Part shown: positions 9,162-62,100 of the stretch, piece by piece
Numbering within the stretch: the first letter of the stretch is position 1
Layout: each line of letters starts with the position of its first letter
Origin: Branchiostoma floridae
Taxonomy: Eukaryota; Chordata; Leptocardii; Amphioxiformes; Branchiostomatidae
Direction of reading: 5' to 3'
NCBI RefSeq assembly: GCF_000003815.2
Contig: NC_049985.1
Span: forward strand, 15,778,134-15,842,133
Length of the DNA: 64,000 nucleotides
Made by a program: the position numbers and the translations under genes
Notes under the pieces: model-generated
The model's database searches: none
What the model saw: the letters and a program-made list of their open reading frames with translations, nothing else
What the model was told of the DNA's origin: nothing

Positions 9162-12100
9162 TCAGAAAGTGTGGGCATTTCTGCACACACCACAGCCGAG
9201 AGCGAACTCTTCCCCTGTGGGGGGGTGGGTGACGTGGAGAGGACACTCATCCCCTTCCAGCTGTTTCCCTCGGGGACCTGCAAACAAGAGAGATATCATC
9301 AAGTTAGGGCTTTGATGAATGTATGTATTGAAAATTTGCAGGGCTTTTGAATTTTTCCCAGCAAAATTTTAGACTACAACCTGGTACTAGTTAAGCTTGA
9401 TCCTAGGTATCATACATTCACAAAAGCAATTTTCCTTTCATGTCAGCTTCTCTCTACGCTATCCTCCATCACTGGAAAATACATCTAGGTCTCTTTCCAA
9501 TCTAAGCCTTCTGAGACATGTGTATATACACATTAATACCTAAAAAATCTCACACTTTCAACAGAGCCATGGTCTGGAGAATAGTCGCCATAATCAAATA
9601 CCCATCATGGTACAACAACAAAAAAGAAAGAAATGCCACTGTAGTTCCAGAACAAATTGTAGTGCCCAAACCCACACTCTCTTTCTCACATCAAAATCTA
9701 TCTGCCACAAAAATTTTGAAAGTTATTGCTAGCCAAAATATCCAGAAACACAGACAGACAGACACACAGACAGACACACCAAAAAACAAAACAAAACAAC
9801 CCTTGTCACAGACTCTGAGGTAAAACTAAGGATTGATGCTTTACATGTGCCCACCTGCTGGACAGTGAGGTAGTTCTTGTTTGGGGATGTTGGTGACCCG
9901 TTGGAAGTCGTCGTGGCAGGGGTTACAGAAGTGAAAATAAAGATTACTGCCATCCTTACCTGCTGGACAGTGAGGTAGTTCTTGTTTGGGGATGTTGGTG
10001 ACCCGTTGGAAGTCGTCGTGGCAGGGGTTACAGAAGTGAAAATAAAGATTACTGCCATCCTTACCTGCTGGACAGTGAGGTAGTTCTTGTTTGGGGATGT
10101 TGGTGACCCGTTGGAAGTCATCGTGGCAGGGGTTACAAAAGTGAAACTAAGGATTACTGCCATCCTTACCTGCTGGACAGTGAGGTAGTTCTTGTTTGGG
10201 GATGTTGGTGACCCGTTGGAAGTCGTCGTGACAGGGGTTACAGAAGTGGGTGGTGCCGAAGCAGAAGAAGACAGCGACGGAGCAGCAGTACCGACACTTG
10301 TACTCCAGGAAGTCTGTGCCGTGCTTGGGACACATCTGGGGGGAGAACAAGTGTTATCTGACTGTATGAATAATGCATGACGTTTTAAAAATTTCAGTAT
10401 TTACCAAATTCTTATGGGAGATTTGTAAACTTACGCTAACAAGTGTACACATGTTCTGGGGCCAGTAGGTGCTTATAACTATTGTTGGAACTAGAAAGGC
10501 CGACATTTGCTTGAGAGCAAATACAGCATATTTCAGCCATCTCCCTCATGAAACAATAGGCCTTGAGGTCGTTGACCCCTTTGGCCATTGGAAAATGACC
10601 AAAAAAATCCCAAATATATCATTTTAAAGTAGTCCATGCCAAAAATTATACATGGGTCATTTGAATAGATATCTAGAGCACCCCTTTACCAATTTACGGG
10701 TCATTAGGTTGTAAATCGAGGGAACAGGAGCCAAAAATGTCCAAATTTTGTCAAAAAATTGCCATAAAATCGCAAAATTAAGCATTTTGTTGTACCGTAT
10801 GGGAAAACTTTTATTGAATTTATGTGCACATAATTGAAGGGCACTTTTATACCAACTTTCAGATCATTTGGTTGTAAAACGAGGCTACAGGAGCCAAAAA
10901 TGTCCTTTTTTGGTAAAAAAATGGCCAAAAATCGCAAAATTAAGTATTTTGTTGTACCGTATGGGAAAACTTTTATTGAATTTATGTGCACATAATTAAA
11001 GGGCACTTTTATACCAAATTTCAGATCATTTGGTTGTAAAACGAGGGAACAGGAGCCAAAAATGTCCTTTTTTTGGTCAAAAAATGGCCAAAAATCGCAA
11101 AATTAAGCATTTTGTTGTACCGTATGGGAAAACTTTTATTGAATTTATGTGCACATAATTGAAGGGCACTTTTATACCAAATTTCAGATCATTTGGTTGT
11201 AAAACGAGGCTACAGGAGCCACAAATGTTCTTTTTTGGTCAAAAAATGGCCAAAAATCGCAAAATTAAGCATTTTGTTGTACCGTATGCCAAAACTGTAA
11301 TTGAATCTAGGTGAGCATATGATCAAGGCACCTCTGTACCAAATTTCATGTCATTCGGCTGTAATACCAGGGTACAGGAGCCCAAAATATACATAAAAAT
11401 TGACAAAAACCTCAATAAAATCATTTCAAAGGCAGATATGAAAAAAATGAAAAAAACACCTGAGGGTATTGGCTTACTCTACCTTTGTGCCAAATTTCAA
11501 GTCAATCGGTTAAAAAATGGCGGAGTTGATTCGATTTGAAGATTTGACAGGAGAAAGAAAGAAAGAAAGAAACACTAGAAAGGCCGACATTTGCTTAGGA
11601 GCAAATACAGCATATTGCAATCCATCTTCATCCTTGAAAAAATCCCAAAATTCAACAATTTGAAGTAATGTTTGCTCAAAGGGAAAATGAAGTACTGTGG
11701 GCACTTGTCCTACACACCTCCATGCCGAATTTTAGGTCATTTGGTTTCAATATAAGGGCATGGGAGCCAGAAATATACATTTTTTAGTTTAGAATGGCTA
11801 AAAACCCCAAAATAACTCATTTTATAATTGCTCTATGAAGAAAGTGTTGATGGGTCCTGTTGTCATATGTCCTATTTACCTTTGTACCAAATTTCAGGTT
11901 AGTTTGTTTACATACAAGGGCATAGAAGCCAAAAATATACATTTTTAGTCAAAAATGACTGAAACCCCCCAAATAACTAATTTTTGAAGTGATCTATGAA
12001 GAAAGTGTTAATGGGACCCTGTGAGCATATGCTCAATGCACCTCTGTACCAAATTTCAGGTCATTTGGTTTCTATACAAGGGCATAGGAGCATAAAATAT

Positions 12101-14145
12101 ACATTTTTAGTCAAAAATGACCGAAAACCCTAAAATAACTCATTTTTGAAGTGATCTATGAAGAGAGTGTTGATGGGACTCTGTGGTCATATGTCCAATG
12201 CACCTATGTACCGAATTTCAGGTCACTAGGTTTTCATACAAGGGTATAGGAGCCAAAAATATACATTTTTTGTCAAAAATGGCCAAAAACCCTAAAATAA
12301 CTCATTTTTGAAGTGATCTATGAACAAAGTGTTGATGGACTCCTCTGCTCATATATCCAATGCACCTATATACCCAATTTCAGGTCATTTAGCTTTCATA
12401 CAAGGGCATAGGGGCCAAAAATAGACATTTTTAGTCAAAAATGGCCAAAAACCCCCAAATAAATAACTTTTGAAGTGGTCTTTGAAGAAAGTGTTGATGG
12501 GTACCTGTGCTCATATGTCCAATGCACCTCTATACCAAATTTCAGGTCATTAGGGTTTAATACCAGGGCACAGGGGCCCAAAATATATATATTTTGTCTA
12601 AAAATGACCAAAAACCCTAAATATCAAAATTTCTAAGGCCTCTATCAAAAAAGTGAAAAAAACACCTAGGGGTATTTGCTATCCCTACCTCCATGCCAAA
12701 TTTCAGCTCATTTGGCCCAAAAGTGAAAAAGTTTAATCGACTTGAAGATTTTGACAGGAGGAGAAGAAACCAAGGAAAAACAATATATTGCAATCCCATA
12801 CTATGTATGGATTGCAATATAATTACGAATACAATATATTTCACCATACCTATGGTATGGCTGAAATATAATAATGTACATCTGTCAGCACTTATATGAC
12901 ATGTTCTATATCTACTTGGCTCATTGCTGCTTTTAAAAGCTGATGAAAATCACAGCTAAAAATTCATACATGAACTTGTCAACCTCTAATTATATTATGA
13001 ATGTATTGGTATGAAATATTCAAGGAGATAGAAAATCACTTTTGGAGAAATTTAACTGATTGCCAACTAAAAAAAATTGCATGAAGTTTCATTACCAAGC
13101 ACAATGGGGTCTAATAGTTGTAGAGGTCTCTGAACGATTGATTCGAAAATTTCGGCGGGTCCACTTTTTAGTTAGCAAACATTGTAATTTGTAGCATCTC
13201 CATAATGTCTTTGTATGTAAATGCTGTAGAACTGACCTGTGCCCTGGAGACATCTGAGCATGCTCCACACACCAGCTCTGCAGGGTCGTAGTCCTCCCCC
13301 ACACCAGCCTCCTGGTCACACCGCGCCTCACCTCCATAGTATGCCTGGATGGGAAGTACAATGTACATGAAACTGTGTCTTGTTCTAGTGTGTTGTTCTT
13401 TGTACACAAGTGTTTCACATGGCTGGTGTTTCACTGACTGTCACCTTCCAGATGATCAGCTTGGCAAAAAGAACTTTGTTCTGCAGTAACTTACATGAAC
13501 CAACTTAATAAAACTATTCATATGAGTGTATATATAGCATATTCTTCAATCAAATACCTTGAGAATGGAGAGAAAAAGAAGGAGACTCATACATTTGTAA
13601 CATTAAGGAAATCAATATAATCTTATTATTTATTATAATCTTCATAAACGTATTTGTAACATTAATAAGATACAGGAGATACTGAAGTGAAATAGAGACA
13701 GGGCACACTAAACAAACTACTAACGGGGAGATATAGGAGGGAGGGGAGCTTCCAAAAATCCTAAGGAGTAGAAGAGACAATGGCCTACCTGGTAAAGATC
13801 CAAGAAATTTTAATTGGTACTATGGGTAAGCATTTATTATGTATTGCAGATTCCTAACGCACTCTACAGTGAACACAGTGTAAGCTATACCACGTTCATT
13901 GTAGATATTTAAAAACAGATGTATGTCTTCTATACCTTGTTGCACTTGTAGCAGACGTAGTAGGCATATCTGTTCATGGCGTAGCCTGCGGTATCGTTGT
14001 AGAACCTGGCCCCAGGTGTGGTGATGGCCTCACACTGACTCAGCCCTTCGTACTCCAGTCTCATCAGGGCTTTCCTCTTCACATCGTCATACAGGGCCCG
14101 GATAGGTGCCAGGAGGTCCTTCAGGGTCGGGTGGTCAATCTCACA
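9162..14145 (-). CDS. MYCBP2: MYCBP2 tandem-cysteine (TC) catalytic domain and C-terminus (4 exons)
   Basis: Exons 13936..14145, 13237..13344, 10170..10335 and 9162..9277. By comparison with human MYCBP2, where Cys4520 and Cys4572 relay ubiquitin and esterify Thr/Ser, both are conserved: Cys in YYGGEARC (codon 13318-13320) and Cys in [12 protein letters not shown] (codon 10261-10263). The residues around the acceptor site are also present: Glu of DYDPAE, Phe-Gly after the second Cys, and His and Phe in CHDDF. The protein ends [17 protein letters not shown] with TGA at 9162-9164. The 10170 donor and adjacent coding sequence are repeated three more times in the following intron. Confidence 0.97.
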
Positions 14146-35100: not shown

Positions 35101-38100
35101 GGAAGACAGTTGCAGGTTGCAAAATATATAGTTCAAACTTTACAGGGGCTAGTCTTTGCTGAGAGGCAGTTCAAACAAGGATTTGAAACTGAAGGCCTTG
35201 ATACAACATTACGCCCAATCTCTTGTGTGAAAACAAACACTATACTACTGTGAACACCTGAACTTGGGTTTGATGCTTGCAGCAACTACATGTATCTGGG
35301 TCTTTTTTCTGTGTCTGACAATGATTTCTTGAAATATTTGTGGACAGGACTTTTGAAATCTTGATGTCAGTTAATATGCAAATGTCTTCCTGTCGTCCTG
35401 TCTGTCTTTTATGGTTCTGTACCCTGGACACAGATTTTGGATCTTTAAGAAAGGACTAACAGAACTATATATAATAATAATACATACATACATTTGTACA
35501 TAATGTGCAATAGCCTCGACCTACCTTCTTACAGGAGGGGAGGCAAACCTCAACTCTTCAAAGGAGTAATCTTCATATGCCTGTGGAGAAGATGTTAAAT
35601 GTGAGAACAAAAATAAATGTATCACAGCAATGTTGTCAATCAATCAATCAATCACTAAAATGGTTTATTTGTCAATCAATCAATCAATCAATCAAAAATG
35701 GTTTATTTGTCAGAAAAGGCTTCAATGTTGTCAATCAATCAATCAATCAATTAATCAAAAACAGTTTATTTGTCAGAAAAGGCGTGGCAGCCAAAGGCTG
35801 AATTATGCCCTCTTTACAAATCAAATGAAATATTGCACTACACCATCTCCTGGTAAATCACATACTTGGTAAATAATCCACCAAAAACTAGTCTGCAAAG
35901 CACTGGTAGGTGTTTAAGATATCTATGAAGACAAAGTATAGTTTACAGAACAATGTACCATAGAGGGTTCTTACCTTCATCATGGTGATAGCCACATACG
36001 ACATGTTGTCCTTCAGTACAGTTGCCTCGTAAGTTACATCCAGTTTGGGAGCGTCCACCCCACCAAACCACTTCCCTTCTGCCACCACGGTTCTACGGAC
36101 CTTCCTGTCCACGCCATTTCTGCCCAGCGGTGCCGCACGTGCCTCGACCTAGGAGAGGAGGACAATGTACTCTGTGTCTTAGATGTGTTTTGGGACATTG
36201 TGTCTCTATTTGGGACAAGTTTTTCTTCTACAGACTAGTTTAAAAATGTAGCCTAATGTACAGGGTTTGGAGGCTTTTCTTTAAAATCTCTATATAATTG
36301 TACTCTTGAAATAACGAAAAACAAGACAAGATACCGACTGACAGGCACCTGATACCACACTTCCATCCAGGGCACGTGACTTAAGCTTTGGATCATTCCA
36401 ACTTGAGAAAGATCAGAGGACTGATCAAAAGCTTGTTGGTAAGCACTTTGCTTTGTGTACAGAAATAGCACATGAAATCTATTTGAAGAGGACTACTAAA
36501 TTCTCTATATTGTATGCTTGTACCTCCATACAGCATACATGTTATTGTACATGTTAATCAAAACTTCCGACCTAACATACCTTTAGGCTAGGCACATTGA
36601 CAGGGTCCCCATACTGGTCCAAGGTGCGGATAACGATCATGGTGGGCCAGTTGCACTTCAGCTCATCCTTACTGAAGACAACCTCTGTCAGCTTAGCATC
36701 CACATAGGAGTCAGGCTGCAGCCATCTGACAAGTACACATATACATTGCATGATTATACTGTAGGGTGCTTTGTTTGGTAGAAATGTAGTGCATCTACCT
36801 GCCAATCTTTAAGAGGACAGAGAGACTATTACATAGACAGATGGGCATTAGAAAATAGCAAGAAAACAGATTAGGCTAAATCGTGTTTCATACAGAGATG
36901 CAATTAGCATCCCCTGTAACACAACTGAATTGCTGCATTTAGTCCACATGGGCAGGAACATGCAAATAAAGATCAGTTAAAACTACAGATGAACAGGAAG
37001 GGGACAATAAGCATGTTTAGATCTAGGATGTCCTGACTTTCTATCAACGGAAAAAAACAAACTGGTAGGGCCATGTGTCACAGTCATAGGACTAGTCAGA
37101 ACTTCATGTACCATGCAAGGAACTGTCCAGGGAGGAAGAAAGAGGTAAGGCAACAGGAAAGATGGTAAGATGATATCAGAGAATACTAGTAATAGGTAGA
37201 TGCTATGTGAAACACTGAAAAAAGCAGAAAACTGAAAAGGGTGGAGAAAACTGGTTGCCAAGTCTTTTGTGGTATCCTAATGGTTAGACTATAAGGCCAG
37301 GGATAGATGACAGGGTTGGACAAGTCCACTAGTCCGATTGTCCCGGGCAAGTGAAAGTGCTGTTCGGATAAGTGCATGTTCTATCCCACTTTTTCCCAGG
37401 AGTGAGATTTTGATATACATGTATTTGTTACTTTTCAGTCATGGCATCAAGAATTAGTTGACACAGAAAAATAGATCCAATAATATACGAATTCCACTGC
37501 TGGAAGTAAAAAAAACACAGAAAAATGTCATTTAAATCCGAGTAAGCGAAAAGTTGATTCGGGCAAGTGGTTTAATTATGTACTTGCTCTTGATCTCTTC
37601 TGCTTGATCTTGATTGGGTACTGGACAACGCCCCTCAGTTGGGGCAAAGCGTCCAGGGAGAGTGCCTCCTTGAACTTTGGAGCGTCTGTGATCTCCGTGA
37701 CCTCGTATGGAAGAGAGTTCCAATCTCTCACGGTTTGTGGGAAGAAGGAATGTCTGTAGCAGTCTTTGTGAAAAGGTAGAGCCTTGTAAGAATTTGGGTT
37801 TGAGTGTCGCGATTGGCGCGGTACAGGCTTTAGATGAGTTTCGACCGGTAGGGCTACTTTATGGTGTCTTGCTTTCTGTAAGATTGTTAATCTATTTGCT
37901 GTCCTTCTGTTGCGTAAAGTATCCCACCCCAAATCAGAGACAAGTTTAGTGACACTGTCATGACTATGATACGAATTTGTGACAAATCTGGCTGCTCTTT
38001 TTTGGACGGACTCTAACTTAGCAATGTGCTCTTTGTGGTATGGATCTCAGGCAGCGCTGGAATACTCTAAATGTGGTCTAACAAGGGATGTATATGCATT

Positions 38101-41100
38101 TGTTTTGACTAATTTGGGGCAGTTATAAAGATTGCGTCTCACAAAGCCTAACGTCTTGTTAGCCTTGGAAGCAATGCACTGTATGTGTTGTGACCAAGAG
38201 AGCTGGTTATTGAGCGTGACTCCTAAGTATTTGTGGTTGTTAGTCTCGGCTAGAACATGACTTCCTAGTTTGTAGTCATAGAGTTTAGGTTTACGTTTGT
38301 GGGTATAACACATAACAAAACATTTGTCCGGGTGTAATTTCATCTGCCATGTGTTTTGCCATGTATCTAATGTATTGATGTCCTCTTGTAAGAGGATGTG
38401 ATCTCTGTCACTGTTTATCTCCCTGTAGATGACACAGTCATCCGCAAAGAGACGGATGTTAGAGTTGAGGTTGTCAGCTAAGTCATTAATGTACACTAAG
38501 AACAGTAGTGGTCCGAGCACGGTACCCTGGGGCACTCCAGAGACTACCTCCGCCCACTCTGAGTGCTCTCCCCCAACTACCACTCTTTGTTTACGATTTT
38601 TGAGAAAATTAGAGATCCAGTGATGTACCTTACCCCTAATACCATAATTTTGGAGTTTTAGGAGTAAGCGGTCATGAGGTACCTTGTCAAAAGCTTTTGC
38701 GAAGTCGGTTATAATCATATCTGTTTGCGACCTGGTATCTAGAGAAAGGGCTAAGTCAGTTGTAGTTAAAATAAGTTGGGTTTCACATGAACGCTTTCTC
38801 CTAAACCCATGTTGCTTGTCAGATAATATGGAGTATTTGTCAAAATGATCCATCATCTGCCCAATAGGACAAGCGAATTTTAGAAAACTTGTCCAGCCCT
38901 GGATGAGATGAGCGGCCTAAGGATAGATTACAAAATAAAATGACAGAAAAACCTTTGAATTCTTTCCACACAAAGAAATAATTGTTGTATAAAAAAGTAC
39001 ATGTAATATGGTACCAACCTTGCGAACCTCCCCCCACTGGTGCCAGGGGTACAGACAATGAAGTCCTTGAGGAAGGCCCGTTCGTTAGACTGTGTGCTGA
39101 GGAGCAGGGTACCCTCCAGTGCCTGGTGCACTGTGGGAGGGCACACCAGCGCAAAACCCTTCCCCAACAGGGTGGAGTGGGCATCAAACACCTATGGTGG
39201 GAGATATCAAAATCGAAAGTTAAAAATACGTCGATGTAGGTTAGACATCCAGGTAATAAGATACGCCAAAAATAGTTACTCAAGCAACTGGATATGGTTT
39301 TGAAACGGTCAGACGTTTCGGATAGAATCCACTATCCTTCGTCAGTGACACTGAAGAGATCTGGAAGAAACAGGTCTTTTATACTCTAACTACAAATGAA
39401 GACAATTTCAGATGTCCAATAGGAAAGGTTGTAAGACATTTCAGACTGAAGACAATTTGGATTCCAAAGAAAACAAAGCTAAGCCAAAGTCAAGCTGAAG
39501 ACAATTTGGATTTCAAAGGATAGCAAGGCTAAGACACAGTTAATGCAACCTTTCCTATTGTCTTCATTCATAGTTAGTCAGTCTGAAATGTCTTACAACC
39601 TTTCCTATTGGACATCTGAAATTGTCTTCATTTGTAGTTAGAGTATAAAAGAGCTGTTTTTTCCAGATCTGTTCAGTGCCACTGACGAAGGATAGTGGAT
39701 TCTATCCGAAACGTCTGACCGTTTCAAAACCATATCCAGTTGCTTGAGTAAATATTTTTGGCGAAAGTTAAAAATGTTAAAGAAACACCAACAAATAGAA
39801 AAACTTCAACTGGTTCTAAACACAAGAAAGTCATTCTTTGACTCATGCACATGTAGTTTCAAATGTGGACAGATGGTCACTATTAAAAGGATTCTTAGTG
39901 ACTGTGTCAACGGAAAAAAATTTGTTAAGGGACGAGCAAAGAGTGGTCACATTGACCAGGTGGTTCTTTGAGGTGGTCAAAAGTACAGGTCTATAACTGT
40001 AGTGTTATACAGTTCACATTTTACCATTTTCCAATGTACATTTGTCATGCAGACATCTCAATAACTCTGTTAATCATATCTTTTTATAATTTTCTGCTAC
40101 TTTATTTCCACAAATCACACACCAGCTGTGCCCCTTCCTCCAGTGAGTCCATGTCCTCCTCAGCCTCAGTACTGGACACAGCAGGCAGCTGCAGATCCTT
40201 CCTCATCAGCATGGTGGCGCACATGGCACCCAGGTATGACAGCTCTTTCTCCAACTGTACCAGGACCTGAAATCATGATACATAATATGCAATCATTACT
40301 GGTGCATTTGGTATTAATGTCTTGTCGAGTGGTGTCAAATGTCCGAGGGGCTTGGCAAACGCAGATTAGGCTGAGAGGTTACAAGTTGGCATTTCTGGCT
40401 AGATATGGTGACATTGGAAAAGGCCTTTTACATGACTTTCCTCACTCCATCCAGGGGTAAAAATATGAAGCTGACTTTGGTTGGGAGGTACAAGACTGTA
40501 GAAAAAGAGAAATGGCCTCTACTTTCCAATACCGTGTCCTAGACAAAGTGGTTTAACAACCCTCTTCCTCCATTGCCTAACAAATGCAATGTGTCGTCTA
40601 CCTTTACCTAATGCTGTGTAGTTGCTTTCTGGAATAAGGACTAAGATATACGAAACTACTAACCTCTTCTGTTGTTGAGCACCACTCGTACCCCACTACA
40701 GAACACTTGAAGCCGTAGAAACACAGCTTCTCATCCTTCATGTAGTCTGAGGCAGTCTCCAGAGAGAAGGCTATTTCATTTCCTGTAGGGATGTAAAAGA
40801 ACTATCTCAATCTAAATGGAACAAAAACATTACATAGAAGTAGCATATTTCAGAATATTAGAGTCTTCATTCAGTAGTTTTCTAAGATGATAAATTAGTT
40901 ACAGACACTGTATTCAAAAAGTGCCATGCATTTACATCTGTACTTGCATAGGAAGGTGGAAAGTGTGCTATATTTTACTGAGTCACTGCATGTGTGGATG
41001 ATAATAATGCATAACTTGATGGATACAAGAATACAACCCAAAGAGGCTGTTGGATTTCAATATTGGTAGACTAAGTAAAGACATGACAAAACGGTTCATC

Positions 41101-44100: not shown

Positions 44101-47100
44101 AGATTTACTGAATGGAAATTGACGCCTGGATGATGATAATGATGAATGGAAATTGCAATAAAACCACAAATTCAGCACCAAGGACAGGTGACCAAAGACA
44201 AAATACAGCATTTAAATGCAAACAGTGTGGAAGTTAACGCAATGTTATCAGGTTAAAACCATCTCCCTCACCCTGGGGTCAGATGATGCCACAGGGCCCA
44301 GGTTTGCCAGTAGAAGAGGCAGCAGGGATGACAGTATGTGGGCGGAGCCAAGTATCTCCATCACTTCCATCTCTGTCATATCAATGAAAAATAACGTTGA
44401 TGTAACTCCAAAGTACCACTTCCTAAAGAATGTCTAAATTGAAAATCATTTTTAGTATGCTATGATGGACTCACATGAAGCACAAAGTCATGAACTGAAA
44501 CAAGCTACACCCTTGCCTCAAAGTTTTATATATGTATGATGATATCCTACGATATTCTATGAACAGTTTTTATATATATGTCCTGTAATTGTATGGCCTG
44601 TAATGGTCTTGTTTCATGTAAACATAATTGATTGATGATTTTAACTAGTATATTTAGAGCTCCTGATCGACATTTTTAACTTGTGTAATGTTTTATGAAT
44701 TGGAAAGTTTCCCAAGCAATTCAGCCATTGGCTGCAATGTGGCAACTGTGACTTCTGAATAAACCATTATTATTACACTATGCATTTAGTGTATTCACAA
44801 ATAGAATTGAGATGGATCAATTTGCCAATGGGATGAAAAGTTAGCAATGAAACCCTGGTAATCATGCTTATCACAGTATGATAATGACTTCACAAACAGA
44901 TACATGTACTTGAAGTCAACACTTTAAATTGGTTGCTATTGTCCTGACTAGGACAGAATCTCTGAGTACTTACCAGGCGTGACCAGAGCTCTCCTGAGGA
45001 TGTCCGTGGCAGACTTGAGCACTGCTGTGGCCACAGACAGCACCGTTCTCCTGGAGTGGGACTCTGCCATCAGTCGGCTACTCTGGGCTGCATGGGCCTC
45101 ACCCTCCTGAGGAGTTCTACAGCAAACACACAACACATCCTTCCAGTTTCCATCCAACAAACTAGTGTGAGCAGAAAGTCAGGAAAGTATTTCTCTTGTA
45201 GCCAATCTAATTCACGTGTGGAAAAGGACAACTTGGCATCACAGTTTTTCTTTCAACAACCTGTTGTGAGCAGAAACTGAGAAAGTCATATTATTAAGTC
45301 TCTTAGAATACTTTTATTGTAACCTACCTAATACATGTCACTGTAACAGGCAGAAGGCATTACTTGGTATCATAGTTTTTATTTTTACTTTTCACTGTTT
45401 TTCCCACTGTCCATTGGTATTTCTTCTTTCCTCCTATCATTTTTAAGGCTTAATAGAAGTTACTGATAAGAAAAACTACAAATCTTTTCTTTCAGCTTTT
45501 GACCAGTCTACTGCATATACCCTCCAATAGCAATCCCCAACCTCAACTTTTCAGATGAGGTATGCCATCTTCTTTTCATGAAATGCCCAACTTCATAACC
45601 TTTCAGCCAAGATCTTTCCATCCTGTTTCCACGCTCCCCTCACCTGTAGTAGAGAATGTTGGGGATCTGTCCCTTGGTCTGGTTGGTGCCATTACGGCAT
45701 GAGAGAGCTGCTGATACTTGGTATCACAGTTTTTAGACATACTTTCTTTACTTGTTCTTTTAGTGAAATGCCCAATTTCATAACCTTCCAAACAAGATCT
45801 CCCATCTTGTTTCCACGCTCCCCTCACCTGTAGTAGAGAATGTTGGGGATCTGTCCCCTGGTCTGGTTGGTGCCATTACTGCTGAGAGAGCAGGAACTAA
45901 AGGTGAAGGTCACGCCGTCCGCACTCTTCACCGTTGGCAAGCCTCCATCCCCATTGGCCGTCCTGCCGCCGTGATTTCTCACCCTCACCGCGTATTTCAC
46001 ACCCTCCTGGACAGGCAAGATGAGGATTAATGCGGGCCTCACCATCTGGACTTCACAGTTACGTATCAATCAGCACTATCTATTCCACACTCTACACATT
46101 GATGCATAGAAAAGACAGAACTTTGGGAAATGATGTGATCTACTAGTGAATGCAACTTGACAGCTCCATAGTTAATATTAATGAAAGTGTTAAACGTGGC
46201 CAGTTAAATCTCGCTACTTGAAGCACAAATCTGGGTGCTTGATGCGGCTGCTGACTGACCTTAATTGGGACTGGTCGTTCAAATTTGACCTCAGCTGCAT
46301 CATTCACACAGTCCTCTGGGTAGTACGTGCCCTTCACAAGTTCCAAGGTCGTCCATCTCTGGGTGTGGGAACCATCCCCAATGTCACTCTGGAACAAAAG
46401 TCACAGAATAATAAGTACATGTAACAGCTTTCAGAGTACGAGTAGAGAAAACACAGTTAACCACTGAGTCAGGGAGCTACTTGTAACACACATGGTGAAA
46501 TGTTATTTTTGTATAATGACTATCTATAATTGGTAGAATCCATCTCATGTTACTCTTACTGTATGCATGTATTTACTGAACAAAAAGAAATAGCACTGAT
46601 ACATGTAGGTCAAAGACGGTATAAGATAAGAAGATAAGATAAAATTTGCTGACAAAATGGTAGATTTTGTAAACAGGCTGACATTTCCAATAGCATCCAC
46701 TATCTTTCAAAAAGTGACCTAGATGATGAACTTTCTTTACAATTATGACAAATCATCACATTGTTGAAGCAATCATTTCAGAGTTTTGCTGCTTAATACA
46801 TATAGAAATTGCCAATGCATTCGCACATTTATGCAAACTGTACATCTATTAACATAGTAGACTTATCATTCCTGCATACCTCACTAGAATCTAGCAGCTC
46901 CAGTTCGTAGTCATGTTGCCCCCCTCCCCCATACAGCATGGCCCCAACCACGACCACCCCTGGCTTGTCTACGCTGAAGCAGACGGCATCGGGTGACCCG
47001 TTGCCCGTGTTCCAGCTCTTCCCCTGGCTCACTCGCGCAAACCGTGATGGCGTGCACGAGACGGGCATGGTCGATCTTTGGATTTCATTCTGTGGAAGAA

Positions 47101-50100
47101 TGAGTAGCATCAAATTAAAGCATTCAGATATTTTTATACTTTTTTGAACACTGAACTTCAACAGCATTGTACAGGTCCTAGTCTTTTCAGATGAATATTT
47201 TTATATACAATGTAGGGCACAGTTTTTACCTGCATGTATGCAGGTATGGTTTTGATGCTGGTGGGAACTTTTCGGTAGCCGGGGATGTAGGGCGCTGTAT
47301 CTCGTGAACGGATGGTGCGAGCACGACGATTTTTGGTACGTGGGTTGGGGGTGGTAGCCTAACACTCAGGTTTGATTTTGGGCCTCCTGGCGTTTGAACT
47401 TGACATTGCAGGTGGCATTTTTGGTGTTTTTGGGGCACTTTTGGCGCTGTGTGTCCGGAACGATACGCGCGATTGCAACAATTTTTGGTGCATGGGTGGG
47501 GGGTTGTTGCCTGTTGCCTAGGATTGACTTTGGGCCTTGTCGCGTTTGAACTTGACCCGGCAGGTCGAATTTTGTGTCCGAGAGGGGTGTTTCCGGAGTT
47601 ATATCTTCTGAACGGCTGGTGCTGGCGCGATGATATTTGGCACATGTGTCGGCGGTGGCTGAATAATGCTCAATTTTGATTTTGGCGCCCTTGGTGCTTG
47701 AACTTGACATTTTAGGTTACCTTTTGTGCGGGCACGGGGCGTGCGCTGTATCTCCGGAATGCAAGGTACCATTGTGTTGCTATTTGGTACGTGAGTTGTT
47801 TGTGGTGTCCTGGTGGTCAGGTTTGATTTTGGGCCTCCTAGTGCTTGAACTTGATACTGTATAGGTTGATCCTGTTTTTGTGTGGTTGGGGCATCCTCCC
47901 AATATCTGCTTGGTTTTAAAAACAGATTATGGTTGGGTGTACATGTAGAACCATCATCTGGCCTGGGCCACCTTCAATGTATCAGGTTACTTAGTGGCAC
48001 TGACAGTTTGCCAGATGACGGCAGTGTACAAGATTATATATCTGTTGGTCAGGTATAATTGGAGTTTGCTTATTACTCTTTGTGGTGTTTCTAGAGCTGT
48101 ATAGTACTGAGTTTTAAGTTTCGGTACAAGTTCCTTTACCCTGTTGGCAATCATGGTTGAACTTGAACTTAAACAGAAGAAGATGCAATTTTCTAATGTG
48201 GAGGAGAACTGTATAGAGTGTGGGCATAAGAGAAAGGTATGTGTATGATTTGTCCTGTGTTTCTTTTTGTTTCTTTGGTAATGCCATTTCCATACTGTAT
48301 ACAGGTAATTTGTTGTTTTGGGCTAGTCATATTCGCTTGGTTTTTGGGCCTGCTTAATCTATGGTACAGGCAGGGTTAAGTGGTGGAGGCTTAGCTTTGT
48401 TCTGTTTTAAATTCAGTATCGTTGGTTGCATTTTGTCGCGGCAAATATATGATGAAATTCCCCTTCTAAGCAACTGCTCATTGGTTTGCGGGGATGTTTG
48501 CTGGGTGTTTGCTCTGACTACAACAGCTTCTGAACTTTTCAAAGCTTCCATTGCCAGTAGTCTGTGTAACACAAACTCCGCTGTCCAGGGCTGTAACTGG
48601 CCCCTCCCCGCGGGTGGCGGATGTTTGGCGGGCTGCTATAAGCGAGATTTAACCAGGCTACATTGCCAGCAGCTTGCCATCTATAAATGGGATTGACAAG
48701 GACATTTTTCATAGTAAATTATGCTGTTAAATTTGGCTTAGATACTACAGGAGATTTAGGTTTGGGTTGGATGGATTGAATGAAAATATCATACCACCCT
48801 GGGGACTAACTGTTGCTGCTGCATGGGGGCTACCACTATTCATATTGTCTAATGTCTATGGAACTACAGATAAAAGTATCATTGGTCAAATTATGCAAGT
48901 AACATTCCGATGTCAAGTGAATAACACCCCAGAAATAAATCTTTAATGAATATCATTGGAAGAACACAAACCAAGGAGACTTAGCAGCTGCATTAGGTCA
49001 GTACATTGAAATAGGAAGATATTAGTATATCATGTGACAGAGTAACTACATGTGCATGGGCCATCTGAGACAAAAAAGGTAGTGTCTCAACAACTTCAAG
49101 TACTGTGGTTGGTTACATACTTAAGAAATCCAAAATAAGTAATGTTCATCCATGTCCAAACTTACAAATTCAGAAAATGGAATTTCAGAGTCAGACTTTT
49201 GCATGGTGCACAACCAACACGGTAAAAAGCTCATTTTTCCAACCACGTACCACAGACAAAAAGGCAAAAATACCCAATAGGTCTACAGAAACCCAATACA
49301 TTTCATGCAGGCCTGAGGTCTACGAACTCTTGTTTCATCTTGTGATATTTTATCTTTTTCTACCCGACTAACTATGCTGGCTATGATTAGCCACCTAATT
49401 TTTGCAAATTTTACTATCCATGACACCTTGATATAAGAATGCCTGCTGTAGGCTACTTAAATGCCTATACAGCAGTTTGGAACAGCAAAGAGCCTTTACT
49501 CTGGCAAGGAGTTCTACAGAAAGTAGCATGAGTCATTGCAGAAATGAGGTTTGATAATCTGTATGTCTAAGAAGCTATTGCTGATTGACCTTTACCTCTG
49601 AGCCTGTTGCAGCAGTGGCCAGTTCCCCCACAATAGCGGCCAGCAGGGCGCATGTGTTACACACCAGGGCATCCGAGTAGATCACTTCCTCCTGGCGACA
49701 CAGAGATAGACATAAAAACTGATCATTATGAAGAGAACATTTAATTCTCTCTTTATATCCCATGCTTCCACATTTATGACAATCCCATAAGTTAACTAAG
49801 ACAACTCATCAGGCCATACACATGTATATGGACAATGTCGAGTTAGGGACTCCATCCCACGCCAAAATAAACCATGACCAACAAAATCAGGGCTCAAAAT
49901 ACTTTTTCCTGCAGACCTGCAATGGTGCAGGTAATATTGCAAATTACCTGCACCAGACAAACTTTACCTGCACCACTCTGAATTTAGGAAGGATTGATCA
50001 TACTAGATTTTTTTAGGAACCATTGATATTTTTTTTAATACTTGATAGGCTGTAAAAGTCAATGCAGCTAATAACAATCCTCATACACCTACATCACAGG

Positions 50101-53100
50101 ACATTTATGTGTACCCCGGTAACCCAGTATATGGACCAGTGCAGGTTAAGTGCAGATAGACAACAGAAATACCTGCACAGCTCCAATATTACCTGAACTA
50201 ACCTGCATATGCAGGTGGTATTTTGAGCCCTGAAAAAGTTTGCTCAGAATCTAAGTAAAACAGAGCATAACACCATGCACAAAGTGTTGTTGCAAGAGTC
50301 GAACTTTAAACTTGAACAGACTGTTACAATATCAATAATTACATTATTACAAATAATCATTACCCAGATGTATGGTCAATAAACGTAGAAGCTTCAATTG
50401 AGGTAATCACCTACAAATGTAAGGCATTAAAAAAGACTTTGGCAAGCTATCTAAACTAAATTCGAGTCTACAATAATATTTGGTAATAAATTCCTACCCC
50501 ACTGAGCTGTATCCTGACTGGAACAACCACGATAGCCAACAGTTTGTCCAGAACCTCCTTAAAGGTGCAGTGTCCTGTTCCAGCACCCTCCAACTGTCAG
50601 GGAAAATAACATGTCAAACATTACTCCATGGACGAGGAAACAGCATGGCAATAGTGGAGGTACCAAACAGATATTACATACATTTGTACAATTATGTACA
50701 AAATAAAACAGTACATACAGGTATGACAATGGGACTGACCTGTCACCTGTGCTCCATGTGTTGTACTAAGATGGGACTGACCCGTGACCTGCATTCTATG
50801 TGTTCTACTAACGATGGGACTGACCTATGACCTGTGTCCTACTGTGTTCTACTAAAATGGGGCTGACCTCTGTTCCATGTGTTGTACTAAGATGGGACTG
50901 ACCTGTGACCTTTCCGTGTATTGTACTAAGATGGGACTGACCTGTGACCTGTGTTCCATGTGTTGTACTAAGTTGAGACTGACCTGTGACCTGTGTTCCA
51001 TGTGTTGTACTAAGTTGAGACTGACCTGTGACGTGTGTTCCATGTGTTGTACTAAGATGAGACTGACCTGCATGTGTTGTACTAAGATGGGACTGACCTG
51101 TGACCTGTGCTCCATGTGTTGTACTAAGATGGGACTGACCTGTGACCTGTGTTCCATGTGTTGTACTACGATGGGACTGACCTGTGACCTGTGCTCCATG
51201 TGTTGTACTAAGATGGGACTGACCTGTGACCTGTGTTCCATGTGTTGTACTAAGATGGGACTGACCTGTGACCTGTGTTCCATGTGTTGTACTAAGATGG
51301 GACTGACCTGTGACCTGTGTTCCATGTGTTGCACCAGGATGGGGAACCTGACGTTGTCCCTGGTTACAGGCGTGGTGGGGCTACTGTTGGAGTTGTTCTC
51401 GTCAGGACTGTTGGCAGTGGAGGGGAGCTGTGGGTCAGACTCGCTCTCCTTCAGGATTGGCAGCAGGGACGTCAGCTTCACCGTTGGGTGACACAGTGCC
51501 GCCATGACGGCTGACAGAAGCCGACCAATGCCCTCGTTCTGCTCGGAACCCTGTAATGACATTGACAGCAACACCTCTTCATGCAGGCCAAAGCAAGTAA
51601 CCACAGGGATGCAATTCATGCACAAAACATGCATGCATAGCAGATTTGGGATGCATTACATAGCTGTGCTCTTTGCATCATAAAGATGTACATTGCAACT
51701 GATAAGGATTATGGTAACATCCAAGTTCTCCAATACTGCTTACATTTCACACAATGTCATTTATATCGGATTCCTTGGTTCCAGTTGCAATGTAGTCTGC
51801 ATAAAGTTAAGGGCACAACCTGCCGTAGGTGTCTATGTGCCAAAACATGGGCAATCTTTCGGGATCGGTATCATAAGTGGTAAGTGCTGCCTCCATACAA
51901 ACTTGTAGAGAATCTGACGGATTTTGGAGCACCCAGACGCGTCATAGAACTTTACGTGCAGGCAAAACTTGCGCAACCGTGCAAGTGACGTGCGTTGAGA
52001 TACTCCCTCCCTGCTCATGCCAGTCATTCCCCACGTTTTCAGAAATGCGGACAAATTGCACGTACGGCGGGTTGGGCCCTTAGCTTAAGCCAGCATGCAT
52101 AGTGTCTCCTTTACATTAAAATTCTAACAACTATACGTTTTGAATATGACCACATTCTTATGCATGCACATCATAAGTACTGAAAATGTTGCAAGATGAT
52201 CATGCATGTCTGCTATATCACAAAGGCAACAAGAAGTATAAAACTAAAGTTTATTGCGGAAAGACCTTTGTGTCACTTTGTTCTTAGAAGCATAAAGTTT
52301 ATGCTTCTAAGAACAAAGTGACACTTGAACAGAAGGCACAAGTGCAAGGAACATTTAGTCATGAGATTGGGTTAATACTTGAGAAACAGGCAACTGACAA
52401 TGAAGATGGTTGTCTAGAGGAAATTTATGACAGATTTATCCATGACAGTGATTTGAACTGTCAGTTTTCTGCATCATGAAATATGCAATGTTAAAATTTT
52501 ACACATAGATTGTATTTTTGCAGCATACAGTACATTGTATTTGACAATGCTAAAATTTACTCCAATCCAAGCTTAAAGAAATGTTAGTTTGAAGTTATAA
52601 ACATTCATTGCACAGACTGGGACCACAGTCTGTTTAATATGTTTCTTGGAAATCATTTTGATAACATAATCACCTTATATTCTAGTTGTTGTTACCAAAA
52701 CAGGATATATTTCTTAGCCTGGATGCAAGCCTTTTCATCTTTATTCTGCTGTTTCAGTTGCTTCCCTAGCCTACAGAAACTGGCACGGAACGATATGATG
52801 ATGATGATAGCCTACAGAGAGAAGGCAGTAAAACTAAAAAGGCTGGCACCCAGGTTATGTGTTTGTTACATCCACAACAAAACACATTATTTTACACCGA
52901 TGAAGCTGCAACAGCCACACTGCATGCAACAAACATGCAGTCAGACAAGACAGAGAGTAGAAACCTAAAGGGGCTACATACGAGGCGTCTTTCCACAGGA
53001 GAGTAAGGTCTCACCGATTCCAACAGTCCCAGTAGGTCGCACAGACACACCCATTTTAGGCTCGAGGTGGGATAGAACGCGTGGAAGCAGCACGTGAATG

Positions 53101-56100: not shown

Positions 56101-59100
56101 CACAGACAATTAGGTCCTGGTTCAGGTCCAAACCTGATCCTGAATTTTCTGAACCGGTGCGGAAAGTACGCTCACCGAGTTGACCAATGCAACGGTGTTG
56201 CAGGAGGATCTAAGGTCTAAGGTAAGACACACCCCTACTTCTGATATATCTGCACTTACTGGTCATCTGTGGTCACCATAGTCTGTCCACTGGCTCCACA
56301 GTCACTGCTGGGTCCTGAGACCCTGGCCCAGCCCACGTACCAGTTGTTAGCAGTCAGCAGGATGGGCTCCTCAAACAGGATGGCATACTTTTCCCTGAAA
56401 TATTGAAACATGCCTATGTTAGAAAAAATGGCAAGAGTACAATTAAAGCAGTTCCCCTAGCAGCGTGTGTAACCCCAGTAGTATACATGCCCCAAGCAGT
56501 GTCTGTACTTCCAGTAGCGTACATACCACAAGGGCTCAAATACATGATCTACGACATTTATTTGCATTATATCTGAAAACAACTAATTATGCAGAACAGG
56601 AGAGTACCTCCCCAGAGCTGAGGTTTCTAAGAAAATACTCTTTGTCTTTCTTCACCAATGAAATATTGTCAATGTGAATCATAAGTATTTGCTAGAAGTT
56701 GGCATAATGATTGTCTTTTATTGTTAACATATAAACTATTTCAAGACACTAACATATTTTAATAACAAGCCCTACCTGGACCCACACTCATACGTCATGT
56801 CGTCAGTTTCACACAGCAGGTCACCGTCACCTTCATGTTCTCCTCCTTCAGTTCCAAGGTCAAACAGCTGAAACAGAAATGTAAGGTCAAACAGTTGAAA
56901 CAATAATCAGACCCAAAATGGAATTTTATCACTCATAAAAATCCCTTGCCACGGGTCGACCCAAAAAAGGCAAGCATATAACTAGGGCTGGACAGGCAAC
57001 CAGAAATATATATTTTTCCAGCCTAAGGCAATGTACCTTGATCTTCGCCGTGTACTCTCCCCTGCCACCAAACAGTCCAAAACCCCCGAGGATGATGTCT
57101 GCATCAGCAGTGAACCTGATGGCTTCTACAGAGTGAACTGAGTAACCCCAGCCCCCGCCATGGCCTGCAAAAAGGTGCGGCAGATATTTTATATAGAGAG
57201 ACCAGCATTTAAACTGAGTGAGTAGCCTTGACCCAATGGTGTGACATACAATTTGACCAACAAGGAGGAGTAGCTTTTAGTTAGTAGATTAGCTTGATTG
57301 GAAAATACAATACATTTCAATAATACAATTAGACTTTTAGAATAGAATAGAATGTAATGAAGGATGGACAAACATTCCTTGACAAAGACTAGTTGGACAC
57401 AAGTAAAATTCTAGAACTGGTGAAGTCCTATTTTTGCGATGGAAGTTACATTTCAACCTTGCATCAAGAGAAGAATGATTGAAAGAAATCCATTACTGTC
57501 AAGATGTTTGTTTGTTTTGTAATGTCTGTATATTCTTGTTGGAAACTTAATGGAAAATGAATAATAAAAAGATCAAACAAAACAACAAGGAAACAAAAAC
57601 GTCATTGGGAAAACAGCTTAGTCAAGCATCTCCACCAAAGGATTCTCTGTAAGTTTGTGATTACAATTAAATTTCATCCTGTGTCAAACAAAGGCTTGAA
57701 ATAAACCTACGCCATAAGACAACAACACACTAAAACTACCCCTCTAAAGACAGTAACATTTTCGCATAACACAAACGTGACACTGTGGGGTACACAGGTA
57801 AAGACAGGAAGGCCGAAGAAGCTTACTGTCGAATCTGTTCACGGCGTTGTAATCCTCCTTGGAGAATATCCTGGCCACGCTGTGCACGTCCTGCGCCTGT
57901 TCCGTCACCGCGAAGCCGAAATCCTGGCACACGGTCAGCGTATCCAGGCAACCCAGCAGGTGTAATGCACTGTGGGACCTCGTCGTCATGGCAACTGGAA
58001 CTACGGGGAGAAGATAAGAGACTTAATGGCTGTGTGTTTCAGAGATGCAGCTTTATGGGAGACAGTCAAGGAACAGGTGGTTACAGCAGATGGGTTCTGT
58101 TAACCTCACCTTATGTTGTAAATACCTTTGTTGTACAGGTGGGGATAGACATATCAAGACTTGTGTCAGGTATTAAATATTCAGCACAGTAACATGGATT
58201 ATGACACCATCATACATCTATCCAAGGTAAGCATAAGATACGTTGATGAAGGCTAACATTAGATGTCCAGGTTATAAGATACACCAAAATGATTTTCCAA
58301 AATATATGCTTGAGGAACTATAGATTGTGTAAACATACATTCAATCATAGTGCATTTTCTTCTCAAAAAGCTGTAACAGTTGCTTTTGGGTACTGAGGTG
58401 AGGCAATGGAAACAAAGTGCCAAAAGATTATTCAGATTCTCTACATTGGCTAATTCATAAGATACAAAGTTTATTTCTGTATAGAAAGTAAGGAAGTACT
58501 AACTTATGTTTGACAAAGGAGGTCACCTCTATCCCAAAGACCAAATGTCCATCTAACCTCCTTGGTCTGACTAGCTAAACAACAGTAATGGCACCATACA
58601 TGAAAGACTGATTAGAGTGTAAGAGTGAGAAATGTGAAGTACCTGTGGGCAGGACCAGCTCTGGACTGAGGAGGTTACAGGTTCCTGTTCTGTCCGACTC
58701 CTGAGGGGGGAAATCTCGCACTTCTCCTGCCGTGGCATTGTAGCACGACACCGCATATGTGTTGGGCTGGTATCTATATATTGGCAGAAAGAGTCTCAGA
58801 ACAGATTCTCCTTCCCAACTACATGTACATCTGTTTAAATGTATACAAAGTATGTATGCTGCCATGACTGTCTTTGTTGTTGAAGCAGCCAAAACTGAAT
58901 GCTGATTCACCAATATTGAAACCAAAATGTGACCATGGGCAAAAAATAGCGCCTAAAATGTTTCCTACCAAGCCATTTCCCAAGTGGACATTCAAAATAC
59001 ATGAATGTTTGCTGAATGCAATGAGGATGCAAAAGCTGTACTGGTATGGTGACTGGCCAAATATACAACAGTTACTGTGATTCTTGGCGTTTGATTGGTT

Positions 59101-62100
59101 AAAAGAGATAACTGCAGATCAATATGGTATCTTAGCCAGTGATTGCACGGAGTTGACCTTGTGAGGGACAACTTATACTGACTCAAGATTGACAACAAGA
59201 AAATACTGCAAAGAATTATCTTTTCAGAGTGTTAGTAACTCATTACTATTGAAGTATGATTTTGCAATGTGGGCAAGATAATTGCAATAAAATAAAGGAT
59301 GTCTAAATATGAGGTGACTGTTCACTTTGACACCAAATGTACAGAAGAGTTTTTTTTTAAGTACTGACCTCCAGAGAACTCCATGCATGGGATCAAGGCA
59401 CAAGCAGCTGTCTGTGAGGTCTGCCTGGTTGCCACCTGAGAAGCTGTAGAAAACAGGTGTCCTTCTGTCAGGACAGTCAACATCAGTATAAACAACTCGA
59501 GCATGCTAACTCCTGGTAAGTAACAGTGCAACGTACCTGACTGCCACAAACACCAACATACACGAACAAAATTAAATGAGCTACTAGTGAGTTTCTTGCA
59601 CAGCCTTTGTAACCCCTGATTTTCCTAATGGGTCAGCAGCTAGTCCTTACTCTTAGTGAGATGATGTCCCTGACTCAGGGAGAAGAGATGCTCTTATCTA
59701 TAGTTCTCTGTACGAGCCACCCTTCATTGGACAATTGATGATAACATCAGACTCAAGACGGATTAGGAAAATCCTTCTTTAAGTTAATATAAGAACTGAA
59801 TTAAGGGAAAAAGTGATTAGGAGAAAAACAACCTTGATGCCGAAACATTTTCAATGACCTAATAAAAACCTTGCTGCAGCATTAAAAAATCAACTATTTT
59901 GAAGATCTGTGGACGATTTTGGTCAATAATCAATCTGGCTAACAACATATTTACAATGTAGTTAATCTACATTTTGTATGTTGTGGGCAGGTTTCCCAAA
60001 GAGGAGGATGAAAAGAAGAAAGTCACACCTTTTGCACGTGCCATCAGTTTTACTGATGAAGAGTGATCGGCCTGGCACAGCTGGGCCATCACCTTCCAGA
60101 TCTACAACCACACCTGTATGGGACAATGGTGCAGAGGTGAGTCTCAGTCTTAAACAATCTACAACCACACCTGTATGGGACAATGGTGCAGAGGTGAGTC
60201 TCAGTCTTAAACAATCTACAACCACACCTGTATGGGACAATGGTGCAGAGGTGAGTCTCAGTCTTAAACAATCTACAACCACACCTGTATGGGACAATGG
60301 TGCAGAGGTGAGTCTCAGTCTTAAACAATCTACAACCACACCTGTATGGGACAATGGTGCAGAGGTGAGTCTCAGTCTTAAACAATCTACAACCACACCT
60401 GTATGGGACAATGGTGCAGAGGTGAGTCTCAGTCTTAAACAATCTACAACCACACCTGTATGGGACAATGGTGCAGAGGTGAGTCTCAGTCTTAAACAAT
60501 CTACAACCACACCTGTACAGGACAATGGTGCAGAGATGAGTCTTAGTCTTAAACAATCTACAACCACACCTGTATGGGACAATGGTGCAGAGATGAGTCT
60601 TAGTCTTAAACAATCTAATGTTGCATACAGTCAAATGTGTCCAAGATGACCACTCGGGGACCTAGAAAACTAGTCTTTGTGGACTAGTCAGGGTAGTCAC
60701 TATAGACAGGATTCGTAATGCTTGTGTCAATGGGAAATTATCTAAGAGACCATCAAAAAGTAGTCACATTGGCCAGGTGGTCCTTATGTAGAGGTTGTCA
60801 CTTGCACAGTTTTAATTGTTAGGAGTTCCAACGTTTTACTAACCATAATGATTGTAGGATCATAATAGACAACACATATTATTCATTCATGTGCAATCTT
60901 GACTAATCACACTTGCAACTTACAAAATTTAGTGTGTATAAGTTCCATTTGACTATCTAATTCTGAACTCCTTTAAACATTTTGCAGTACTACAACCTGA
61001 TGCTAAGTAAGCTATACGTGACCATAGGTTCTTACCTATGCACTTCTGGTCTGCAAACAGTGTGGCGTCTGCTAGTGTTCTTGCATTGATGAGTGACTCG
61101 TCAATTTTGATGAAGGTCTGGTCCCCTGATGCCCCCACCCACGTGGCCCTCCTGCCGAACTTTGGCCCCACCCCGGTGACCATGCCAGGCTCTGTGTTCC
61201 CTGGGTGCCAGGACCCATGTTCCCTCCCCAGTTGCCCCTTCTGTTGGAAAAAACAACACTGTCTTTTTGAATATGGAATAGAAAATGTCAACAAACACAG
61301 TAACATTGCAGATTTTATATGCTATTGCCGTACACTTGTCAATGAGAATGATCAGAGAATTGATCGAAAGCATGTTCAACTGAGCGTATGGAATTATTAC
61401 ATAAAACTCTACAGCATTTTAAACTTCAACAACATAAAGTTTCCATTTAGGATTGTTTCACCATTTTTGACTGCACTACTTTGGGCAACATCAATCATCT
61501 CAGTCTGTTCCAATACATTTACACAATATCACATCGTGAACTAAACCCTTTGGAAATAGAAACAACTTATCGTTATTTAAAATGACTTAACAGCTAAGAT
61601 GGCAGGTTTGCAACACATAGAATGACTACGAGTGTAAAAAAGAAATAAATGATACTACATAATATTGAATTAATCTATGAGTTTTGTGAATGTCTTTTAT
61701 TCACTATTGTTAATGTCTTGCTAATTCAGTTGAAGCATGCATCAATAACAATTTTTCCTGTCTGAATGCAGGACTTATAATGGATGGGGCCAAAGTTGTG
61801 GCACCAACGTTGGACCTGGGCCAAATCAGCCATATGCTGCTAGTCTACAATTAACGCTTGGTTCACCTTTCTCCGCGGGGTATCCATTGTTTTAAAAACA
61901 TTGTATGTTGGGCCATTAATCTGACAAACAGTAGTTTCAAACTGATTTATTTTGACAATGTTGCAGTTTGAAACCACCATCCAATGACTTGATTTCCCTA
62001 AATACCAAGTTTCAAAATACAACGGAATCGGCTCCCCAATGCTAAAATATGGTGAACTAACGTAACGGTTATACCATCTTTTTTGCCTCACAGCCCAATA

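Follow-up and report, generated by a model that had tools for sequence, protein, structure and literature searches.

Tandem repeats across exon-intron junctions of the lancelet MYCBP2 gene as probable 'mirages'

What are the tandem repeats that sit across exon-intron junctions of a single gene in Branchiostoma floridae, and what do they mean for its splicing and its introns? The gene lies in a 64,000-nucleotide stretch of the genome (NC_049985.1, positions 15,778,134 to 15,842,133), referred to here as the window, with coordinates counted from its first base. Matches to human structures in the PDB and to Pfam families identify it as MYCBP2, on the minus strand: the human structures matched by its translated exons are 6t7f and 5o6c (E 2e-37) and also 3hwj, the last two exons joined match a human structure with E 8e-61, and the open frames hold PHR, RCC1 and ANAPC10 domains (Pfam). 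Four tandem duplications overlap its junctions, three at donors and one at an acceptor, as a preliminary description of the window had reported; one of the four, however, with a spacing of 184 bp, is a duplication of about 1.4 copies and not an array. We consider it very probable that these repeats are lancelet 'mirages', minisatellite-like duplications of a segment that holds the boundary of a pre-existing intron.

All four lie on the minus strand, and three are arrays in Tandem Repeats Finder (TRF), supported also by copy reading and splice-site scores: 105 bp x 3.8 (A1, 9853..10248, donor scores), 42 bp x 15.1 (A3, 50729..51343) and 57 bp x 9.1 (A4, 60100..60617). The last exon base lies at 10170 (A1), 45828 (A2) and 51308 (A3) for the donors, and the first exon base at 60113 for the A4 acceptor. 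Human structures support the A1 and A2 junctions; the exon finder, phase and reading support those of A3 and A4. The exon body meets a copy at the array edge in all four. A full A1 unit joins 79 bp of exon end to 26 bp of intron at the donor CCAGCAG/GTAAGG (the slash marking the boundary), full copies being 95-98% identical. Four copies of this donor have their last exon base at 10170, 10065, 9960 and 9855; three read CCAGCAG/GTAAGG and the last reads GTGGGC. A 401-base DNA query from A1 matches a single place in the 513-Mb genome. A2 is a 78-bp self-match whose exon-side copy (45802..45879) carries the real donor closing the PHR domain exon 45828-46006 (...ILYY), as supported by the exon finder, PDB 3hwj and the donor score. 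Its distal copy (45618..45695) carries the exon end and donor TACTACAG/GTGAGG, with the site at 45644, and differs from the exon-side copy by one base among the 52 of exon and one among the 26 of intron. The 42-bp units of A3 carry the donor TCACAG/GTCAGT, of which 12 sites were scored; the exon that ends in this array spans 51308..51550 (minus strand; exon finder, sequence), and the next exon starts at 50593. A4 comprises nine units of 43 bp of intron plus 14 bp of exon, each with the acceptor TACAG/GTGTGG; the copies are 93-100% identical to the exon-side copy, and seven of the nine are identical. In the last of them starts an exon (60029..60113, minus strand, ...DGTCKR) whose end was read by eye, as was that of the exon upstream of A4, at about 61036 with ...KCIG.

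Repeats of this kind are already published for lancelets, a point on which the preliminary description was silent. Junction-spanning tandem repeats have been named mirages in the lancelet Adh3, globin, troponin C and PGBD5 genes (PMC3087553; PMC3902484; these and the papers below are cited from excerpts), the PGBD5 paper adding the PGBD5 case and citing troponin C (PMC3902484), and they are reported to leave regular splicing unaffected (PMC3087553; PMC3902484). Among nine globin loci that we examined, the locus with a noticed junction repeat lies on contig C18, where a 158-bp unit is repeated 4.2 times over an exon acceptor, like the published BflGb6. The MYCBP2 units resemble mirages in spanning a donor or an acceptor, in their AG/GT signals, in occurring as two to many copies and in belonging to the same lineage. 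They differ in that four occur in one gene and in that A2 has only 1.4 copies; the genes for which the excerpts name mirages do not include MYCBP2. Our literature search, made in a single library, found no genome-wide count of mirages, which the excerpted papers report gene by gene.

Which copy is spliced can be addressed from the reading frame. When A1 is spliced at the exon-nearest donor, 93 of 93 residues align to human MYCBP2 without a gap. This joins the predicted penultimate exon (10170..10335, minus strand; exon finder, PDB 6t7f alignment), which ends at that donor, to the last exon (9165..9277, minus strand, ...PRGKQLEG...NAHTF; sequence, human alignment), whose acceptor lies outside the array. 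The A2 exon matches the PHR structure 3hwj through its last residue, a comparison that reaches the junction and no further. Three of the unit lengths (105, 42 and 57) are divisible by three, as described earlier, and 184 is not; the accompanying claim that all three such units stay in frame fails for A1, where an in-frame TAG lies past the first donor and all three later donors lead to a stop. With the A1 frame closed by this TAG and the A2 spacing not divisible by three, the frame remains open only in the arrays of 42 and 57 bp, A3 in frame from the exon to 50852 (open frame 50852-51655) and A4 throughout the array (open frame 59962-60630). At least three multiples of three among four units would arise by chance with a probability of 0.11. 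We make no claim of frame preservation from 18 junction repeats with readable units (MYCBP2, a block of contig C1 described below, the globin locus and the exon-end loci of a word-pair survey): nine are multiples of three (105, 42, 57, 51, 36, 30, 39, 21, 42) and nine are not (184, 58, 167, 158, 43, 23, 61, 22, 64), against six multiples expected (P about 0.1).

The additional copies carry sites that score much like the real ones. This holds for 1 of 1 decoys in A2, 8 of 8 in A4 (acceptor scores 5.9-6.1), 2 of 3 in A1 and 9 of 11 in A3. The four real junctions all read AG/GT, as do the listed decoys except one in A3 (50782). Motif scores of the real sites, ranked against 42 donors and 44 acceptors, give donor/acceptor percentiles of 100th/80th for A2, 60th/50th for A4, 93rd/32nd for A1 and 83rd/5th for A3; A2 and A4 are good as both types, whereas A1 is moderate and A3 poor as an acceptor. 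Dual-specific splice sites within tandem repeats are described in human UBC and also in VCX3A (PMC10809524). As there, a repeated AG/GT, one per unit, can score as donor and acceptor; in UBC and VCX3A, however, the excerpt places both intron ends inside the repeat and the units are protein-coding, whereas the dual scores in MYCBP2 are motif scores.

Does the overlap with junctions exceed chance? We placed unit-length segments at random and counted junction hits, using an exon finder trained on the window, 40 kb upstream of it and a 200-kb block of contig C1 picked by position (the C1 block). A first, self-trained run called the arrays coding and was repeated with the arrays shortened; this run again failed to call A4, which we annotated by hand. 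For MYCBP2 we count 4 hits, against 0.90 expected with 7 repeats (P 0.006), 1.05 with 12 repeats (P 0.012) or, on a generous exon list, which adds six approximate positions for hand-read exons, 1.30 (P 0.027); this gene was picked because of its pattern. In the C1 block, 2 of 15 repeats hit against 0.46 expected (P 0.07), 3 of 36 against 0.76 (P 0.04), and on the generous list 3 against 2.05 (P 0.34). Both regions together give P 0.001-0.04, and P 0.04 on the generous lists. Hand additions favour the observed count (the A2 and POLE2 repeats, and the junctions of A4, POLE2, the ENPP-like gene, the kinase and the last exon). Excluded were predicted minus-strand exons at 206-324, 10065-10067, 37498-37499, 37584-37875, 38143-38635 and 48795-48818, predicted junctions inside the kinase arrays, which were merged into one before counting, and, in the C1 block, a repeat next to an N gap (188865) and a CA-like repeat (194749). 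Placed whole, each of the five highest-scoring MYCBP2 arrays touches a junction with 43-66% chance, which contradicts the earlier supposition that random minisatellites should rarely hit junctions.

Junction repeats are general, as the cases in this block picked by position show. At a TTBK-like (tau-tubulin-kinase) exon end, ...HRDIKP, a 17-base core occurs in 25 exact copies, counting the real one, within about 1.9 kb; an ENPP-like acceptor (weak homology match) carries a junction repeat; and the POLE2 acceptor is duplicated at 167 bp. Arrays at exon ends of two dynein-heavy-chain exons and of folate-carrier-like, TALPID3-like, FSIP1-like and MFS-like exons, described below with the word-pair survey, add to these cases.

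The preliminary description related the pattern to the creation or movement of introns by tandem duplication of an AGGT-containing segment, a model reportedly put forward by Rogers, by Gao and Lynch, and by Hellsten and co-workers. Under this model, the two ends of a newly gained intron both come from the duplicated AGGT (PMC3443670; PMC3087553). The duplication of an AGGT-containing segment in tandem is common to both situations, all four MYCBP2 junctions read AG/GT, the A2 site has high scores for both donor and acceptor, and in the globin paper mirages are put forward as an intermediate stage in intron gain (PMC3087553). The model, however, duplicates exon sequence, whereas the MYCBP2 repeats duplicate an existing junction whose partner site lies elsewhere, outside the repeat in all four cases (acceptors at 9277, near 45161 and at 50593; donor near 61036). 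The A1 boundary sits where human MYCBP2 requires it, and A2 agrees with the human structure up to the junction. Moreover, AG/GT is common anyway in MYCBP2, at 29 of 51 predicted donors (C1 block: 19 of 65) and at 13 of 52 acceptors (C1 block: 6 of 66), and the three C1-block junction repeats lack it, reading CCT/GT (TTBK-like), CAG/GA (ENPP-like) and CAG/TT (POLE2), which rules out a requirement for AGGT. We therefore judge intron gain or movement a very improbable account of these repeats.

For mirages as duplications of existing boundaries, we propose the following sequence of events. Breakpoints suggest that a short tandem duplication would arise first, through slippage or template switching. 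This may have occurred between short direct repeats flanking the junction in A3 and A4: A3 units start with CCCATC, which the exon holds and which recurs in the intron 42 bp further on, and TAGAT flanks A4 on both sides. The identity of the copies suggests that the array would then expand and be homogenised by unequal exchange, as other minisatellites are. The spliceosome would keep using the copy nearest the exon body, as protein homology indicates for A1 and as we infer for the others, so that the protein stays unchanged and the other copies, with their competent-looking decoy sites, leave as intron. Junction-spanning duplications would survive because they are near neutral, unlike duplications within an exon, which alter the protein. 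Since real junctions can score as both donor and acceptor, to a variable degree, extra AG/GT copies could also be removed stepwise.

Several points weigh against this account. Only in A1 does homology identify the copy predicted to be spliced, the support in A2 ending at the junction; since A3 and A4 are open in frame, some use of their other copies may occur. The splice-score model was partly trained on these very sites, and inspection of the copies revealed no clear breakpoint microhomology in the A1, A2 and POLE2 repeats. Array copy numbers also depend on the assembly. The arrays might even be artefacts of collapsed or mis-joined haplotypes: the seven identical copies of A4 are hard to assemble, the copy number of the PGBD5 repeats varies between assemblies (PMC3902484), and one globin mirage was misassembled in an older draft (PMC3087553). 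Yet scattered substitutions and indels separate the MYCBP2 copies, resequencing data support the PGBD5 repeats (PMC3902484), and trace data and two haplotypes back the globin ones (PMC3087553), so that we hold such an artefact to be extremely unlikely.

Do splice sites themselves attract duplication? A local bias towards duplication at C/AGGT splice sites had been suggested in the preliminary description. Donors could be hotspots at which CAGGT folding back on an ACCTG close by, or a transcription-coupled structure, seeds tandem duplication, a reading that we entertain tentatively and regard as rather unlikely. In its favour, a genome-wide survey of two copies of one word 34-64 bp apart gave 817+946 = 1763 pairs of CAGGTGAGT against 2+0 for the reversed word, and 168+130 pairs of CAGGTAAGT against 4+4. 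Outside arrays, single copies of CAGGTGAGT and TGAGTGGAC do not differ in number (3 and 3 in 304 kb; overall 10 and 3), and the placement test over both regions points the same way. Against it, the word controls are two reversed words only, the single-word counts are small (CAGGTAAGT 1, TGAATGGAC 3), the C1 block shows no clear excess on the generous exon list, and much of the raw excess is one dispersed family of about 51 bp, to which many rows among the matches listed belong. Hence the suggested bias is partly supported, by the excess of CAGGTGAGT pairs as tempered by this family, and not in its dependence on AGGT.

The dispersed family, with tandem units of about 51 bp (CAGGTAAGTAAGGTGTGTTTCC...) that hold donor-like words, occurs genome-wide, for example at C1:20224899-20226505 and C3:7451737-7453274. 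Several times it forms two opposite-strand arrays about 1-1.5 kb apart, as would a transposable element carrying an array close to each end; a copy in the C1 block (L007, about 46851-47250) has donor words on one strand only.

With family rows set aside by eye, the matches listed, which for CAGGTGAGT cover all of contig C1, left 6 loci for CAGGTAAGT and 11 on C1 for CAGGTGAGT, 16 in total with one shared. Four of the six CAGGTAAGT loci among the matches listed resemble exon ends: homology assigns two of them to a dynein heavy chain and to a folate carrier, and L039 and L042 are read as such by open frame only; at L037 the second word seems to be there by chance, and at L038 the duplication is intronic and lies next to an exon read by eye. 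Seven of the eleven C1 loci resemble exon ends, five of them backed by homology (L036; L043, dynein; L044, TALPID3; L051, FSIP1; L052, MFS) and the other two, L045 and L046, by open frame only. At L049 there is a real cornichon exon, with a second site that is only weakly similar, L048 is intronic, and the arrays of L047 and L050 extend beyond the examined stretch. Homology searches with L045, L046 and L042 gave no match, the Pfam match of L039 is sub-threshold only, and L043 has no PDB match, though Pfam matches it to dynein (AAA_7). L036 (PDB) and L043, at C1:221300-223000 and C1:229620-230030, are dynein-heavy-chain exon-end repeats about 8 kb apart, possibly in one gene. Because a repeat holding a donor word often holds a real donor anyway, the seven exon ends alone are no proof of bias, and this also counts against the hotspot reading.

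ACCTG, the inverse of the donor core, occurs in 8 of 13 tested non-family units against 0.69 expected and in 5 of 10 loci resembling exon ends, compared with 8 of 140 predicted donors and 2 of 24 CAG/GT donors that have it within 50 bp; the three loci left out of the 16 (L037, L038, L049) lack it by eye. This argues for hotspots, but ACCTG is absent from the MYCBP2 units of A1, A3 and A4 (0 of 3). Donor-word units with ACCTG (C1 loci, C5:4436089, C5:26403168) give short hairpins such as CAGGTGAGTCACACCTG. A more far-reaching proposal, that CAGGT/ACCTG fold-back with template switching makes lancelet donors duplication hotspots that seed very many junction-spanning minisatellites, with dual-specific arrays removed stepwise, we consider doubtful.

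The window holds further features around the MYCBP2 repeats. Two adjoining arrays of a 162-bp unit (10678-12621) lie in the intron just upstream of the exon that ends in A1, and a reverse-transcriptase fragment (RVT_1; 38047-38916, minus strand; Pfam, E 5.5e-30) lies in a MYCBP2 intron. A MYCBP2 intron also has a run of N from 31923 on, the window and 40 kb upstream containing 170 N in total. A neighbouring 701-amino-acid open frame on the plus strand (5334-7439) matches a TIR domain and, weakly, TPR.

The MYCBP2 repeats are of a kind that is ordinary for lancelets and that is probably commoner than reports on single genes indicate. Our small survey suggests that they are common in the lancelet genome, and that the donor word occurs in tandem arrays far more often than its reverse. 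If this frequency holds, lancelets would provide many natural experiments on how the spliceosome chooses among near-identical sites, and on whether splice sites attract duplication.

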